A stretch of 64,000 nucleotides of DNA from Poseidonibacter lekithochrous (GCF_013283835.1 NZ_CP054052.1:1860001-1924000), one strand, 5' to 3'; counted from the stretch's first letter, positions 35,555 through 42,285 are shown. Made by a program: numbers and translations. Notes: generated by a model from the sequence alone, not told the origin.

Positions 35555-35582
35555 ATAGCTAAAAAGATTTCTTTTTAGCTAT
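35555..35582. terminator. Bidirectional hairpin between dut and the gamma-CA-like gene
   Basis: ATAGCTAAAAAG (35555-35566) pairs perfectly with CTTTTTAGCTAT (35571-35582) around a four-base loop. It contains the stop codon of the minus-strand gene (35575-35577) and serves convergent genes. Confidence 0.75.
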
Positions 35583-36075
35583 AGTCGTTTTTATAATCTA
35601 CATAATGAGCTGCATGAGTAACTAAACCAGCTTCATCTTCTTCTGTTAATTGTTTTACAACTTTTGCTGGACTTCCCATGATTAATGATCTTGGTGGAAA
35701 TTTCTTTCCTGATGTAACTAATGAATTAGCTCCAACAATACTACCTTTACCAATAACAGCACCATCTAAAACTGTAGCACTCATACCAATAAGACAATTG
35801 TCTTCAATTTTACAACCATGTAACATTACTTTATGTCCAATAGTAACATTATCACCAATAACTGTAGAAGTGTGAGTATCTGTATGAATCATTGATAAAT
35901 CTTGAATATTAGTATTTTTACCAATTCTTACTTTATTTACATCTGATCTAATAACACATTGAAACCATACTGATGAGTCTTCACCAATTTCAACATCACC
36001 AATAATATCTGCACTTGGTGCTATCCATGCTTTTGTATCAATCTTTGGGTAGAATTCTTTAAATTTTAATATCAT
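35575..36075 (-). CDS. Gamma-carbonic-anhydrase-like hexapeptide protein
   Basis: A 166-residue left-handed beta-helix protein of the YrdA/PaaY group. Hexapeptide repeats run from about residue 15 to 130 (ADIIGDVEIGEDSSVWF, GKNTNIQDLSMIHTD, GDNVTIGHKVMLHGC, GKGSIVGANSLVTSG). The three zinc-type histidines are seen in SMIHTD, IGHKV and MLHGC. A short C-terminal helix follows. Family members are trimers; some hydrate CO2, many have no known substrate. It has its own short upstream gap and no operon partner; the M14 gene begins 77 bases downstream on the same strand but belongs to another unit. Confidence 0.85.
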   Translation of the reverse strand: MILKFKEFYPKIDTKAWIAPSADIIGDVEIGEDSSVWFQCVIRSDVNKVRIGKNTNIQDLSMIHTDTHTSTVIGDNVTIGHKVMLHGCKIEDNCLIGMSATVLDGAVIGKGSIVGANSLVTSGKKFPPRSLIMGSPAKVVKQLTEEDEAGLVTHAAHYVDYKNDYS

Positions 36076-36152: not shown

Positions 36153-38750
36153 CTACTCTTTATTTGCTTTGTATTCAACAATAATAGGTTCAGAATAATT
36201 AGGAACATCATCATAAGTAAATATTGCATAATATTTATCTATATCTTTTGCTCCAAAATCATCATAAGTATAATCATCACTACCTGCATAAAGTTTTTGT
36301 CCATCATGAGAAGAAAGAGGTTTTCTATAGGCATTTTTAATAACCTTAACACCCTTAAAATCAGGATGATCTGGATTATCCCAAGTAAGTTTAATACGAC
36401 CACTGTCATTGATTATTTTTCCATTTGAAGGCTTATCTAAAGGAAATCTTCTTTTAGGAATATACTCAACAATTAATTTAGGAGATAAAGAAAGATTTTT
36501 AATTTCCCATGAAACTTTTTTGTCCTTAATAGCTCTTTTTGCAGAAGTTGGTTTTAAAACAAAAGCAACTGTAGCTTTCTCTTTTAATTTTTCATTTAAT
36601 GTAATTTCAGAGAAAGAATCAAACATAAAATATTGAGTTTGATTATTTTTAAGTTCAGTTGCACTTACATCATAACCAACATTTTGAATAATTTCTCTAT
36701 TTGTAATATTTTGATAATCTTGATCTATACTAGTATCTACAAACTCAAGATGGAATCTAATATCATCTTTTATATAAATACGAGTAGAGTTTAATTCAAA
36801 ATATGCTTTTGTAATCATTGTTTCATCATATGGAGGCAGGGCTGATAAATCAAATTCAAAACTAGAATAGATTGGAGCACCAGATTCATCAAAACCTGCT
36901 GTGATTTCATCTGTAATTACATTCTCTTTACTTACTGTATAAACAGCTTTTGGATAAAGAGCTGAAATATTTGGTTTTTCAGTATATGTTAATTCAAGTC
37001 TTGGTCTATATGGTAAACCCATACCAAACTTACCATATCCAATATCCCATTGCATCATTTGTCTACTTCGACCAATTCTTAACTCTTTTGGTCCTTCAAT
37101 TCTTAATACAATTTTTTCATCAACAATAGATTTTTTTAGATATTCACACTCAATTCCAGAGAAATGCCAAGATCTCCAAATACCTTGAGTTAATTGATGC
37201 GAAGCAGTTGGTCTTCCTACATATTTTAATAATTCCATATTTTCAACATCATCAAAAGATGTAATATCACCCATTTTTGTTTGATCAACAATAGCAACAT
37301 TCCACTCACCATATTTTTCAATAGTAGTTGATACTCTATTAATTGGATACAAATTAAAATCCGCAGATTTAATAAGTGCATTACTTGGTAAAGATTTTAG
37401 ATTAATAGTAACAACAGCATAAGAAACACCCTTATTTTCATCAACACCTACAAATAAAGAGTTTATTCCAAAGTGTTTAGCATTATTATTAATATTTTCA
37501 GAAACATAACCAGTCTCTTTAGCACTTGCATAATATGTTCTACTAAATTCATCATATTCAACTGTTGTTCGAACTTTAATTTGAGGATAAAATGGTGATT
37601 TTTGGAAATTATCTTTATGAACAACTCTAATATTGTAATAATAGTCTTTATTTGATGATAGGTTTATATCAGAAAATTCTAGACTTTTTGTTTTTGCAAT
37701 TAAATTACTATTATTACAATAAGTTTTATCTTTTAAACTTCTATAAATTTCAAAAAATACATCATTTTTAGATATATCATAATCCCATTTAAGATTTACA
37801 TGGTTTGAACCAAATTCTGTTACTTCAAAAGAGTTAACTCTTTTTACAATGTTATTCTTGCAATAATAAGGTGCTTCTTTAACAGCAGCTAATAAAGCAG
37901 GAATATGTTCTCTTAAATTTTCATTCATATCATCTAAATAATCAGAAATATTTCTTGTACCTACTTCAACAACACTAGAGATTATTCCCTTTGAATAATA
38001 AAACTCTCTACCACTTCCTGAAATTAATTTTGAAGGCGGTTTACCTTGGTGAATTCCATACTCTCTACCTGAAATCTTTTTAATCTCTTCTGCCATATTT
38101 GCACATAAAGTATTCATATCAGTTGTATCAATAGTATCTTCATGTCTAAAATCATGAGCAGGGAAAAATACATTTCCTTGAGAGTGATAATCTAAAGCAA
38201 TAGTAATATGATCTACATTTTTTTCTACAAAATCTTTAAGTGCTCTTGTTTCTGGTTCTGAAAAAGGTTCAGGTCCTCCATAAACATTAGAAGTTGTAGC
38301 AGTTGATTTAATAAAACCAATAGGGAAGTTTCTATTTAAATCAACACCATAGGTTCCATCAGCATTAACACGTCTATTTTTTCTCCAAAAAGAAAAATGG
38401 TTTCTAGAATATTCATAACCATCTGGATTTGCACATGGAACCATATATATAGTTGTTGTATCTAAATAAGCTTTTAGTGTTCTATCATTTTCATAATTTT
38501 CTAGAACATATTTAGCAAATTCAATAGCTAACTCATGCCCAACCCATTCTCTAGCATGAATAGTCCCTGTAAAGAATAGGGCAGGTCTTTTATTGGCTGT
38601 TTTGATATCTTTAGAGATAGTAATTAAATTAATATCTCTTTTTTCCCAAGTTTGTCCAATTGATTCTAAAGAAAAATGTGCAGGAAATCTTTCCTGCAAA
38701 TCTTTAAATATCGCTGTTGATTCATCATATGATCTATAAAGTTGTTTCAA
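36153..38750 (-). CDS. M14 zinc carboxypeptidase with FN3 and DNRLRE-like domains
   Basis: An 865-residue metallopeptidase. Residues 1-290 are an M14 carboxypeptidase with zinc ligands H65 and E68 (HAREW) and H189 (DYHSQG), substrate residues in VDLNRNF, and a catalytic glutamate at 262 (VEVGTR). Residues about 300-395 resemble fibronectin type III. About 400-590 and 595-765 look like two DNRLRE-type beta domains, and a last FN3-like domain ends the protein. There is no signal peptide, which is odd for such an architecture. The start is TTG, eight bases after AGGAG, two bases past the ATP-grasp gene. It is last in the four-gene ligase/peptidase operon and may trim a product of its ligases. 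Domain names past 300 are tentative. Confidence 0.85.
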   Translation of the reverse strand: MKQLYRSYDESTAIFKDLQERFPAHFSLESIGQTWEKRDINLITISKDIKTANKRPALFFTGTIHAREWVGHELAIEFAKYVLENYENDRTLKAYLDTTTIYMVPCANPDGYEYSRNHFSFWRKNRRVNADGTYGVDLNRNFPIGFIKSTATTSNVYGGPEPFSEPETRALKDFVEKNVDHITIALDYHSQGNVFFPAHDFRHEDTIDTTDMNTLCANMAEEIKKISGREYGIHQGKPPSKLISGSGREFYYSKGIISSVVEVGTRNISDYLDDMNENLREHIPALLAAVKEAPYYCKNNIVKRVNSFEVTEFGSNHVNLKWDYDISKNDVFFEIYRSLKDKTYCNNSNLIAKTKSLEFSDINLSSNKDYYYNIRVVHKDNFQKSPFYPQIKVRTTVEYDEFSRTYYASAKETGYVSENINNNAKHFGINSLFVGVDENKGVSYAVVTINLKSLPSNALIKSADFNLYPINRVSTTIEKYGEWNVAIVDQTKMGDITSFDDVENMELLKYVGRPTASHQLTQGIWRSWHFSGIECEYLKKSIVDEKIVLRIEGPKELRIGRSRQMMQWDIGYGKFGMGLPYRPRLELTYTEKPNISALYPKAVYTVSKENVITDEITAGFDESGAPIYSSFEFDLSALPPYDETMITKAYFELNSTRIYIKDDIRFHLEFVDTSIDQDYQNITNREIIQNVGYDVSATELKNNQTQYFMFDSFSEITLNEKLKEKATVAFVLKPTSAKRAIKDKKVSWEIKNLSLSPKLIVEYIPKRRFPLDKPSNGKIINDSGRIKLTWDNPDHPDFKGVKVIKNAYRKPLSSHDGQKLYAGSDDYTYDDFGAKDIDKYYAIFTYDDVPNYSEPIIVEYKANKE

Positions 38751-38753
38751 GGA

Positions 38754-40256
38754 TTACTCTCCTATTTTTAATCTCGATTTTAATTGAGCTAATTTATTTT
38801 TTCCAATCCCATCAAGTTCTTTTAATTGATCTAAATCGCTAAACTTTTTAACTTCTTCTTTGAAGTTTAAAATAATTTTTGCTAACTTTGAACCAATACC
38901 TTTAATCTTTTTTAAAGTATCTTCATCTGCATCATTAATATTAACTCTCATATCATCAATACTATCATCCCATACTTTTATTAACTGCTCATCTACAGAT
39001 TCTAATTCTAATAAATCACTTGAATCTGTAACAACATTATCTAATAAGTACTCTTGGATTTCTAATGCTAATTCTTCTTCCATTCCATGTAAAGTCATTA
39101 TTTGAGTTAAAGAAGCTGTGTTAAAATTAATTTTATTTACTTCAATTTTACTCTTTTTTGTATCTTTTAATAAATCTTTTTTTATAGGTAACTTCTCTGG
39201 TGCAATTGAAGCAGGAACATCATTTGGATTACTTAATAATGCTTCTTCCATATCAAACTTATCTTCTGGATCATTAATATACCAAGTACCATCACAAGAA
39301 GGTTTGTATTTACTAAATCCTATATGTCTCATAGTTCTAAGTAATGATGAATCAACTTTACCTAACTCTTCCCATGAGAATAATGGAACATGAGGCATAG
39401 GGAATCTACCATTTGAGAAGTCCCACATTAAATATTGACCAATCCAATCTCTAATATAAGGGAATGCAGCAAACGCAGTAGCACACTCTAATATATAAGC
39501 TTTATCAGTTTTTGCACAAATAGCAATATCACAAGCCCAATACTCAGCTTTTGCAGCCTTAGAAGCTTCAACTGCCAATTCTAAAGCATTCATTGGTACA
39601 TTTTCATAAGACATTGAACCACCTTGAGAAGTGTTTGTAATCCACTCCCCATCACCAGAGAATCTCCAGAATGCACAAATTGGTTTATGTCCAATTAACA
39701 TAACTCTTAAATCCCCAGAGAATTTTAAATCAATTGCATCCTGAGTATATATAGGAGAGTATTTTTTATCTTCTAACAGCTCAAAAGCTTCTTTAAAATT
39801 ATCAGCTTTATGTACATAATAACCACCATAATTAGATGGACCATAAGATCTTTTAATAATTTGAGGATATTTAGCTTTATTTTTTAAATACTTGTATCCT
39901 TTTTCATTATCATAATAGATTTTTGTTTTAGGTGCAGATAGATTATACTTATCACAAAATAAAGTAACATTCTCTTTTGACTTATTAGGAAATTGAGTTT
40001 CTAAAGATGGTACAAATCTAACATGAGGTAGTTCTTTCGAGATTTCAACAAAAGTATCATAAGCAGTTGCAGGAATATTACCAATTAATACATCGATATT
40101 CTTTGCTTTAACTTCTTTTATAAATCTCTTTTTATCATTTTTCCAATGATATACAACTTCTTCAATTTTGTCAGGCCATCCTTTAAAATTTGAGTGATCA
40201 AAAAATCTTAATACGTAATCAAGATATAAAAATCCCAATTTAGGTAATTTTGTCAT
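38754..40256 (-). CDS. ATP-grasp protein fused to helix-hairpin-helix domains
   Basis: A 500-residue protein with two parts. Residues about 1-280 form a RimK/GshB-like ATP-grasp fold: YPQIIKRSYGPSNYGG binds ATP, and GDLRVMLIGHKPICAFWRF and GGSMSYENVP follow the family path. The acidic C-lobe motif, normally ExN, reads LECATAF, so an asparagine magnesium ligand is missing and activity may be altered. After a Lys-rich linker, residues about 375-500 hold two ComEA-like helix-hairpin-helix units (INFNTASLTQI..., NINDADEDTLKKIKGIG, LDGIGKNKLAQLK), which in other proteins bind DNA. Start overlaps the previous stop as TAATG. Third gene of the operon. I know of no characterised protein of this architecture. 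Confidence 0.85.
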   Translation of the reverse strand: MTKLPKLGFLYLDYVLRFFDHSNFKGWPDKIEEVVYHWKNDKKRFIKEVKAKNIDVLIGNIPATAYDTFVEISKELPHVRFVPSLETQFPNKSKENVTLFCDKYNLSAPKTKIYYDNEKGYKYLKNKAKYPQIIKRSYGPSNYGGYYVHKADNFKEAFELLEDKKYSPIYTQDAIDLKFSGDLRVMLIGHKPICAFWRFSGDGEWITNTSQGGSMSYENVPMNALELAVEASKAAKAEYWACDIAICAKTDKAYILECATAFAAFPYIRDWIGQYLMWDFSNGRFPMPHVPLFSWEELGKVDSSLLRTMRHIGFSKYKPSCDGTWYINDPEDKFDMEEALLSNPNDVPASIAPEKLPIKKDLLKDTKKSKIEVNKINFNTASLTQIMTLHGMEEELALEIQEYLLDNVVTDSSDLLELESVDEQLIKVWDDSIDDMRVNINDADEDTLKKIKGIGSKLAKIILNFKEEVKKFSDLDQLKELDGIGKNKLAQLKSRLKIGE

Positions 40257-41173
40257 TATGCTTCCTTTATAGTTTGTTTAGTTTTTCTATCAATTAAATC
40301 AACAATAGCATCGATTTTTTTATTATTAAAATCTAATCCCATTTTTTCTTGTTCTGGTGTTGCAAAAGCAGGTATTCCGTTAACTTCCAAAACAACATAT
40401 TCTTCTTTTTTTCTATCATAAATAATATCAACACCAGCTATATCTAAGCCCGTAACTTTAACAGCCTTAAGCGCCAAATCGATTACAGCTTCGTCTGGAT
40501 CCCTTAAAAACACGCTTCCACCACTTGTTACATTTGTTCTCCAATCTTCAGAACTAGCTTTTCGTCCATAACAAGCAATATATTTACCATCTACAATATC
40601 TACTCTATAATCAGTATTATCATAATCAATAAATTTTTCAACGTAAAAATATCTTAAGTCCATTTGATTTAAAAAAGGCATTAACATATCTAAAGTTTCT
40701 TGATTTTCAATTTTTGTAAGTCCTACACCACCCCAACCATCAGTTGGTTTATAAACCATTTTGTCCCATTTTTTCATAATTGCTTTTAAATGAAAAGTAT
40801 CATCTCTATGACAAAGTTTATAATCTGCTGTATTAATCTTATTCTTTCTTAATAAAAATGATGTTTGAAATTTATCTTCAGTTAATTCAAATGCATCATA
40901 AGAATTAATCATAGGTACAACATGACTTAATGCTTTATATAAATACATTTGATATTGAGTTTGTTCCCCTGCATTATAAGAGAAAAACAAATCTAATTTA
41001 TCCAGTTTCATATCATCATATAAGATATGACCATTTTTAGCAATTGCATCTCTTAAATTAATATTTGGAATTACTTTAATATCTCTCTCTTCCAATTTTT
41101 CGATAATTTTCTTTTGAATTTCATCACCACCACCATTTTGATACATCCACATTCCAATTTTTCTACTAGCCAT
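40256..41173 (-). CDS. ATP-grasp ligase, RimK/LysX-like
   Basis: A 305-residue ATP-grasp enzyme that should form an amide bond between a carboxylate and an amine through an acyl phosphate. The ATP-binding loop is VYKPTDGWGGVG, followed by DYRVDIVDGKYIACYGRK and GGSVFLRD. The metal-binding tail is complete (AGVDII, then VLEVNGIPAF with ExN), unlike its neighbour. There is no carrier protein gene such as LysW nearby. AGAGGG precedes the ATG; the stop overlaps the next start as TAATG. Second gene of the operon, eight bases after the M20 gene. Likely substrates (amino acid, peptide or protein C-terminus) cannot be told. Confidence 0.88.
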   Translation of the reverse strand: MASRKIGMWMYQNGGGDEIQKKIIEKLEERDIKVIPNINLRDAIAKNGHILYDDMKLDKLDLFFSYNAGEQTQYQMYLYKALSHVVPMINSYDAFELTEDKFQTSFLLRKNKINTADYKLCHRDDTFHLKAIMKKWDKMVYKPTDGWGGVGLTKIENQETLDMLMPFLNQMDLRYFYVEKFIDYDNTDYRVDIVDGKYIACYGRKASSEDWRTNVTSGGSVFLRDPDEAVIDLALKAVKVTGLDIAGVDIIYDRKKEEYVVLEVNGIPAFATPEQEKMGLDFNNKKIDAIVDLIDRKTKQTIKEA

Positions 41174-41181
41174 AATTCCCT

Positions 41182-42285
41182 CTAATCCTTAAAAAATACT
41201 TCTTGATAATGACTCAATATTGTTGTCATCATCCCAATTCTTTGCTCAAATGAACTTTTCAAAGCTCTCTCTTTTTTTGTATGATCTCCATCGCCATAGG
41301 GACCAAAACCATCAAGTGTTGTTACTCCAAAAGAAGAAACAATATTTGCATCACTCACTCCACCTCTTGATTCTAAAGGTATTTTACTTTTCGTAAGTGT
41401 TTCAAAAAACTGAACTAATTGAAGTTGTTTTTCATTCTCTTCCATAACATCTCTTTGGATTATTCCATCAGCTGTTGATTTTGTGCCTTCAACAAAAGAA
41501 GTGTTAGTGATTTTTTCAACTTCATTCATAATTCGTTTTTTTTCAGATTTTTTGTCAAATCTGAACTCCATCATCATTTCACAATGGGGAGAAACAGTGT
41601 TAATTCCAATTCCACCTTCAAATTTACCAACATTGACAATGGAGCCTTCTTTCAAATTAATTAATTCAGAATATTTTTGTAGTTTTATTGCACCTTCTAA
41701 ATTAGCATTAATACCTTTTTCATAAGATGTTCCAGCATGTGAAGCTTTACCTTCAATTTTTATAATATATCTTCCAACACCTTTTCTTGCAGTAACTAAT
41801 TCTAAGTCTTTTCCAGCAGCTTCAAATACAAAACAATAATCGTAGTTTTTAGCAAGTTCTGATGTAATTTCTTTGGAATCATCACTTCCTGTTTCTTCAT
41901 CTGAAACAAGTAAAAAATCAATATTAAATATTTCTCCATTATTTTTAAAAATATTTCGTAAAGCTTCTAAAGCAACAACATTACCACCTTTCATATCACA
42001 AACCCCAGGACCATAAATCCAGTTCTCATCTTGGGTAAAACCTTCAAAATAACCTTTTGGAAATACTGTATCGTTATGACCTAATAATAAAATTCTAGGT
42101 CCTTCTTTTTGATTAGATTTAAATAATAAATGATCACCAATTAGTTCTCTTTTAAAAGTTTCTTTTTTAAAACCTAATTCTAAAAGCCATGAGGACATAA
42201 CATTGCCAACTTCGTCAACGCCATGTTTATTTTGTGTATGAGAGTTAATAATAACTATTTTTTCTAAATCTTCTAAATAGCCCAT
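41182..42285 (-). CDS. M20 metallocarboxypeptidase, CPG2-like
   Basis: A 367-residue dinuclear zinc peptidase of the M20/ArgE-DapE-CPG2 family, cytoplasmic. Metal ligands read H70 and D72 (LLLGHNDTV), D97 (GVCDMKGG), E131 with catalytic E130 (SDEETGS), E155 (FEAA) and a late His (GDGDHTKKE). HAGTSYEKGINAN marks the dimer domain. Carboxypeptidase G2 of this family removes C-terminal glutamate. It is the first gene of the ATP-grasp/peptidase operon; its promoter lies in the 265-base gap before argG. Its job may be turnover of the ligase product or release of a building block. Confidence 0.9.
   Translation of the reverse strand: MGYLEDLEKIVIINSHTQNKHGVDEVGNVMSSWLLELGFKKETFKRELIGDHLLFKSNQKEGPRILLLGHNDTVFPKGYFEGFTQDENWIYGPGVCDMKGGNVVALEALRNIFKNNGEIFNIDFLLVSDEETGSDDSKEITSELAKNYDYCFVFEAAGKDLELVTARKGVGRYIIKIEGKASHAGTSYEKGINANLEGAIKLQKYSELINLKEGSIVNVGKFEGGIGINTVSPHCEMMMEFRFDKKSEKKRIMNEVEKITNTSFVEGTKSTADGIIQRDVMEENEKQLQLVQFFETLTKSKIPLESRGGVSDANIVSSFGVTTLDGFGPYGDGDHTKKERALKSSFEQRIGMMTTILSHYQEVFFKD

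Follow-up and report, generated by a model that had tools for sequence, protein, structure and literature searches.

The stretch of DNA analysed here, called the window, is 64,000 nucleotides long and covers positions 1860001-1924000 of a complete 3.57-Mb genome of the Arcobacteraceae. A cassette of four genes, encoding two ATP-grasp proteins and two metallopeptidases, occupies its middle part. The features of the locus, in window coordinates, are as follows.

42501-42466, minus strand: argG terminator (16-bp stem and T run), the upstream border of the cassette
42285-41182, minus strand: M20-family metallopeptidase, 367 aa, the first gene; Pfam M20 (E=8e-18) and M20_dimer
41173-40256, minus strand: RimK/ArgX-like ATP-grasp ligase, 305 aa; Pfam RimK (E=7e-19)
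40256-38754, minus strand: second ATP-grasp protein with a helix-hairpin-helix part (ATP-grasp-HhH), 500 aa; Pfam RimK (E=8e-13) and HHH_3 (E=4e-21)
38750-36153, minus strand: M14A metallocarboxypeptidase, 865 aa, TTG start; Pfam Peptidase_M14 (E=2e-60)
35575-36075, minus strand: gamma-carbonic-anhydrase-like gene; NCBIfam CarbAnhydGPos, 205 bits
35583-35554, minus strand: terminator behind the gamma-carbonic anhydrase gene

The preliminary description had placed the four genes head to tail behind the argG terminator, and the coordinates, strand, Pfam families and terminator were confirmed. The M20 and RimK-like genes are 8 bp apart, the RimK-like and ATP-grasp-HhH genes overlap by 1 bp, and 3 bp separate the ATP-grasp-HhH and M14 genes. 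Among named relatives, an Arcobacter sp. MAG comes closest at this locus; its ATP-grasp-HhH protein is 99% identical. The gamma-carbonic anhydrase gene starts 77 bp downstream of the M14 gene. Since no terminator-like site was found between these two genes, the transcript may continue into the gamma-carbonic anhydrase gene in the Arcobacteraceae lineage. This gene adjoins the cassette in Arcobacter-type loci and is mostly absent beside it elsewhere; it is a neighbour in Arcobacteraceae-type loci and lies outside the cassette. Elsewhere in the window, an ORF of 5319 aa (1769-23744, minus strand) carries Calx-beta and VWA domains in its last 1000 residues and is followed by HlyD, ABC transporter and OEP/SPOR genes, in a region of higher GC than its surroundings. 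Together they probably encode a giant adhesin and a type I secretion system dedicated to it.

When genomes were scanned with the ATP-grasp-HhH protein, relatives were found to be encoded in 268 stretches, and the 80 best of these were taken as loci. Of these best 80 loci, 63 have the four genes side by side, with the M20 gene divergent in six. Among the other 17, 11 reach a contig edge, five contain solo ATP-grasp-HhH copies, and one (L081) lacks only the M20 gene. The hosts of the best 80 loci belong to the Campylobacterota, the Desulfuromonadales and Thiomicrorhabdus, and are mostly marine according to the habitats given in record titles. When 59 related genomes were compared, 27 contained all four genes, 27 contained none, and 5 contained partial sets. 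Every pairwise association of the genes in these genomes has a Fisher P value below 1e-11, uncorrected for relatedness. The family is found in 52 of 397 well-assembled genomes of the phylum. The adjacency of the four genes is far beyond chance. The proposal that they form a single functional set is borne out by this co-conservation outside the source strain: they constitute one conserved functional unit that is not peculiar to that strain.

In one genome (G051), the ATP-grasp-HhH gene lies beside efp, 0.84 Mb from M20-RimK-M14, and all four genes are retained. Two genomes, G044 with only the M20 and RimK-like genes and G032 without the second ATP-grasp gene, are listed as near complete, yet both are draft assemblies. 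G044 (L113) is listed as 100% complete, and its contig stops 0.6 kb downstream of the two genes; it is possible that this genome has a two-gene version of the cassette. In G032 (L114), efp is two genes away from M14-RimK-M20, and in three related genomes (L105, L074 and L077) an unlinked ATP-grasp-HhH gene stands directly behind efp. The idea that solo ATP-grasp-HhH loci are a separate system was rejected, since in three genomes (L036, L075 and L078) they are second copies, which accompany the cassette or what is left of it on a short contig. In a relative of Thiomicrorhabdus (L127, G483), the ATP-grasp-HhH gene is split into two overlapping frames; the frameshift may be genuine or an artefact of the assembly.

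The surroundings of the cassette differ among lineages. It is flanked by argG and carbonic anhydrase in the Arcobacteraceae and by rpsP-rimM-trmD-rplS in Sulfurimonas-like genomes, so it is the block itself that is conserved, not the neighbourhood. In 19 loci rplS flanks the cassette, mostly together with rpsP-rimM-trmD, and this linkage is limited to the Sulfurimonas-like lineage. A functional link to efp or rplS was set aside because it is lineage-restricted and may reflect position only. Neither a conserved fifth gene nor a small conserved ORF of the graspetide-precursor type (at least 60 aa) was found beside the cassette in the best 80 of the 268 loci. The nearby precursor peptide considered earlier has no candidate of this size there; a shorter one would be possible. 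On a tree of the ATP-grasp-HhH core, the phylum label has to change more than once. Thiomicrorhabdus carries the cassette in 2 of 63 genomes of its family, and in one Photobacterium all four genes, with M20 divergent, are on a 2.1-Mb replicon. The cassette has been transferred between phyla as a whole four-gene unit. Phage or prophage cargo was considered and rejected, since no relative occurs in viral contigs and PHROG matches are only distant ones, to the RimK-like and M20 proteins. Anti-phage defence was likewise dismissed, as none of the four proteins has a PADLOC match.

The catalytic domain of the M14 carboxypeptidase (residues 1-300) is followed by approximately 560 residues of all-beta domains that extend to the C-terminus. 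One of these is of the DNRLRE type (NCBIfam DNRLRE), a type of domain typical of surface proteins. The stop-to-stop frame is 866 aa, one codon beyond the gene, which leaves no room for a signal peptide and indicates a cytosolic enzyme. Being leaderless, the M14 protein can share one compartment with the other three. The zinc ligands and the catalytic Glu are conserved in the motifs HAREW, LDYHSQG and VVEVG. The predicted structure (pLDDT 85) has the fold of carboxypeptidases A, B and O (CPA/CPB/CPO), with CPO among the best matches. Arg248 aligns without gaps with Asp255 of carboxypeptidase B (CPA/CPB position 255), and this position is Arg in 60 and Lys in 1 of 61 homologues. Residue 255 governs specificity, and Arg at this position confers acidic preference in carboxypeptidase O (PMC9925722). 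Removal of C-terminal Glu or Asp is therefore predicted for the cassette enzyme, and the residue that it trims is probably acidic. In carboxypeptidase O and the cytosolic M14 deglutamylases, too, the S1' pocket has a basic residue at its base, and their C-terminal specificity is acidic, as predicted here (PMC9925722). In contrast to these enzymes, the cassette M14 is bacterial and leaderless, with the beta-domain region as an addition.

The closest solved relative of the M20 peptidase is carboxypeptidase G2 (CPG2; PDB 1cg2, E=9e-27). The motifs GH.DTVF, CDMKGG, DEE.GS, EAAG and GDGDHT are conserved in 64 homologues. The protein scores 178 bits against the glutamate carboxypeptidase model NF004788, below its curated cut-off of 349. 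Furthermore, Lys208 and Ser210 of CPG2, which we take to be substrate-specificity residues, are not kept in the alignment with the cassette M20, which makes its specificity for glutamate doubtful.

In the RimK-like ligase, the metal-binding E-x-N motif (EVNGIPAFATPEQEK) is intact, and EVN is invariant in 68 homologues. A W-x-T-N-x-T-S-G-G motif is also conserved. The closest solved structures are ArgX (3vpb) and RimK (5zct). The best NCBIfam scores, 142 bits for MptN and 129 bits for rimK_fam, are both below cut-off. The RimK equivalog NF007764 (cut-off 331) gives 52 bits for this protein and 15.5 for the second ATP-grasp, and none of the four proteins reaches a curated NCBIfam equivalog. The RimK-like gene is the most exchangeable member of the cassette: two subfamilies alternate in this place, some clusters have two RimK genes, and its distances correlate least with those of the other three genes. 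A solo second RimK-like ligase, 62% identical to that of the cassette, stands behind a cold-shock-protein gene in L112 (8552-9478; approximately 1426550-1427480 of its own genome, minus strand). In L021, a sister of this ligase lies behind the cassette, together with a stand-alone HhH gene of 145 aa.

The second ATP-grasp protein combines a RimK/LysX-type core (residues 1-330) with a C-terminal ComEA-type helix-hairpin-helix tail (residues ~380-497). Its AlphaFold2 model has a pLDDT of 77.8, and RimK, ArgX and LysX folds match it at Z ~20. The core is highly conserved, and the place of the E-x-N of other ATP-grasps is taken by an invariant ECATAFAAFP. In the profile alignment, the Glu of E-x-N is kept and the Asn is lost in all homologues; catalytic motifs are conserved in three of the four enzymes. 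With this motif replaced, the chemistry of the second ATP-grasp may differ, or the protein may support its partner ligase. By its sequence it may be a pseudoenzyme or an enzyme with other chemistry. The HhH part had been taken as a defining feature and proved to be optional, with several versions: the window protein has HHH_3, a sister clade has HHH_5, and no HhH is recognised in a large Sulfurimonas-like group. About two dozen linked copies, including those of Thiomicrorhabdus, have no recognised HhH tail. Of the 26 genomes whose linked copy lacks the tail, only 4 have a second copy and 22 have no second tailed copy, which makes the tail accessory. An essential DNA-binding role of the tail was rejected because it is optional among homologues. 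In one genome (L036, G427), the cassette copy has no HhH tail, and in an unlinked second ATP-grasp-HhH copy (L036:9989-11446) the HhH domain is preceded by a linker very rich in lysine.

These features suggest, with a probability of roughly 0.4, that the cassette encodes a self-contained pathway in the cytosol for the synthesis and remodelling of a short acidic peptide, as a metabolite rather than a protein tail. Synthesis and trimming had been proposed from the presence of ligases and peptidases, and this is still the simplest account of a set in which two ligases stand with two exopeptidases; to judge from the M14 pocket, the trimmed residue is probably acidic. An acidic peptide as the thing made and trimmed is suggested by the two enzyme pairs in one compartment, the basic M14 pocket and ligase relatives of the Glu/aminoadipate type. 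The nearest solved relatives point the same way: ArgX adds Glu onto LysW, RimK adds Glu onto S6, and CPG2 removes Glu. In the proposed scheme, the RimK/ArgX-like enzyme would activate a carboxylate with ATP, in the form of an acyl phosphate, and join it to an acidic amino acid. We infer that glutamate is the most likely amino acid added, as we infer the order of the steps and the metabolite nature of the product. The second, divergent ATP-grasp would make a further bond or assist the first ligase. The M14 enzyme would trim C-terminal Glu or Asp, and the CPG2-related M20 enzyme would release a terminal residue or recycle the product. Since the set crosses phyla as exactly four genes, each recipient should already offer the acceptor. 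The simplest candidate is an amino acid or common metabolite, the next a universal protein; a common small molecule would be likelier than a dedicated protein. Against a metabolite pathway, surface-type DNRLRE domains would be unexpected on a metabolite-trimming enzyme. Other points that count against the pathway are the doubtful glutamate specificity of M20, the second ATP-grasp without the metal-binding Asn, and the partial sets of G044 and G032.

The same enzymes could instead form a reversible protein-tail system, in which an acidic C-terminal tail is put on by the ligases and taken off by the carboxypeptidases. Its target would be some widely conserved protein, but not S6. Both ligases are nearest to RimK and LysX/ArgX by fold and family, and in Pseudomonas RimK and RimB write and erase poly-glutamate on RpsF (PMC11957791). 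Translation genes occur near the cassette (rplS and rpsP-rimM-trmD in the 19 loci, efp in three), and HhH tails could place a ligase on nucleic acid. However, no gene for a target accompanies the cassette, and the rplS link is confined to a single lineage. S6 itself was rejected as the target. It ends in ...AAKKAN in the genome of the window, and its C-terminus is basic (-KKAN, -KKAAK or similar) in nearly all of 30 relatives. No terminal Glu was found on S6 in these relatives, nor a consistent difference between those with and without the cassette, although S6 of one cassette-positive genome has a near-acidic end (-EEKAEA). S6 polyglutamylation by RimK-RimB (RimABK) is the best functional analogue that was found, as there, too, a RimK-family ligase has a partner peptidase that takes acidic residues off the C-terminus (PMC11957791, PMC10092738). 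RimK-RimB has one ligase and a retropepsin, whereas the cassette has two ligases and two metallopeptidases, has no RimB-type gene, and encodes ligases below the RimK equivalog cut-off, in a host whose S6 lacks an acidic C-terminus. On balance a protein tail is unlikely, though worth keeping in view.

In amino-group-carrier pathways such as those of LysW/ArgW, LysX or ArgX attaches an amino acid to a carrier protein, from which LysK, an M20-family enzyme, releases the product. An M20 enzyme is present in the cassette, and for both ligases the best solved matches include ArgX/LysX. Fold and sequence are near ArgX/LysX; the LysX_arch score is 100 bits, with the cut-off at 275.6. A LysW-like carrier had been considered as a possible neighbour, but the LysW/ArgW carrier model (TIGR01206) gave nothing above cut-off in any of 60 genomes, in a search where positive controls worked. 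Moreover, no conserved small ORF of 60 aa or more adjoins the cassette in the 80 loci, the unit lacks LysZ-, LysY- and LysJ-type genes, and the carrier pathway has no role for an M14 carboxypeptidase; a pathway of this kind is improbable. A modification or stress system linked to DNA or the nucleoid, with the HhH tail targeting a ligase to DNA, is likewise improbable. The HHH_3 tail with intact GIG hairpins, the different HhH type (HHH_5) of the sister clade and the lysine-rich linker in L036 agree with it, but the tail-less linked copies, and the 22 of 26 such genomes without a tailed copy, Thiomicrorhabdus included, argue against it. The cofactor ligases MptN and CofF (alpha-L-glutamate ligases for methanopterin and F420) are related through the best NCBIfam score of the RimK-like protein, but this score is far below the 350-bit cut-off, and the cassette has no cofactor pathway genes. 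The NAGGN osmolyte operon, with an ATP-grasp ligase, an amidotransferase and a peptidase, makes a small peptide. It resembles the cassette in having a peptide-bond ligase and a peptidase in one operon, and differs in ligase architecture, peptidase family and the amidotransferase, which the cassette lacks.

The preliminary description recognised no known pathway with this exact set. This held in the model libraries and the open-access literature searched, which do not describe the set and do not include a 2009 amidoligase gene-neighbourhood survey; no characterised amidoligase pathway fitted. Operons of ligases and peptidases are of a known kind; the searched literature seems to hold no description of the present combination, of where it occurs or of the acidic specificity predicted for it. 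Taking an acidic metabolite and a protein tail together, it is an even bet that the cassette is an undescribed system for a Glu/Asp-rich peptide, with paired ATP-grasp ligases and two cytosolic exopeptidases, that spread as a four-gene unit.

Time and again, new peptide metabolites or protein tags have been discovered through co-inherited sets of ligases and peptidases. The cassette is compact, occurs in cultured Poseidonibacter, Malaciobacter and Thiomicrorhabdus, and is missing from close relatives. Together with the concrete prediction that M14 cleaves C-terminal Glu or Asp, the compact cassette and cultured carriers make the question of its product directly testable. If the acidic-peptide reading is true, the product would be a new class of peptide metabolite, such as a compatible solute, a storage compound or a signal, or else the first acidic C-terminal protein tail beyond S6, made by a system that has spread among marine Campylobacterota, Desulfuromonadales and Gammaproteobacteria.
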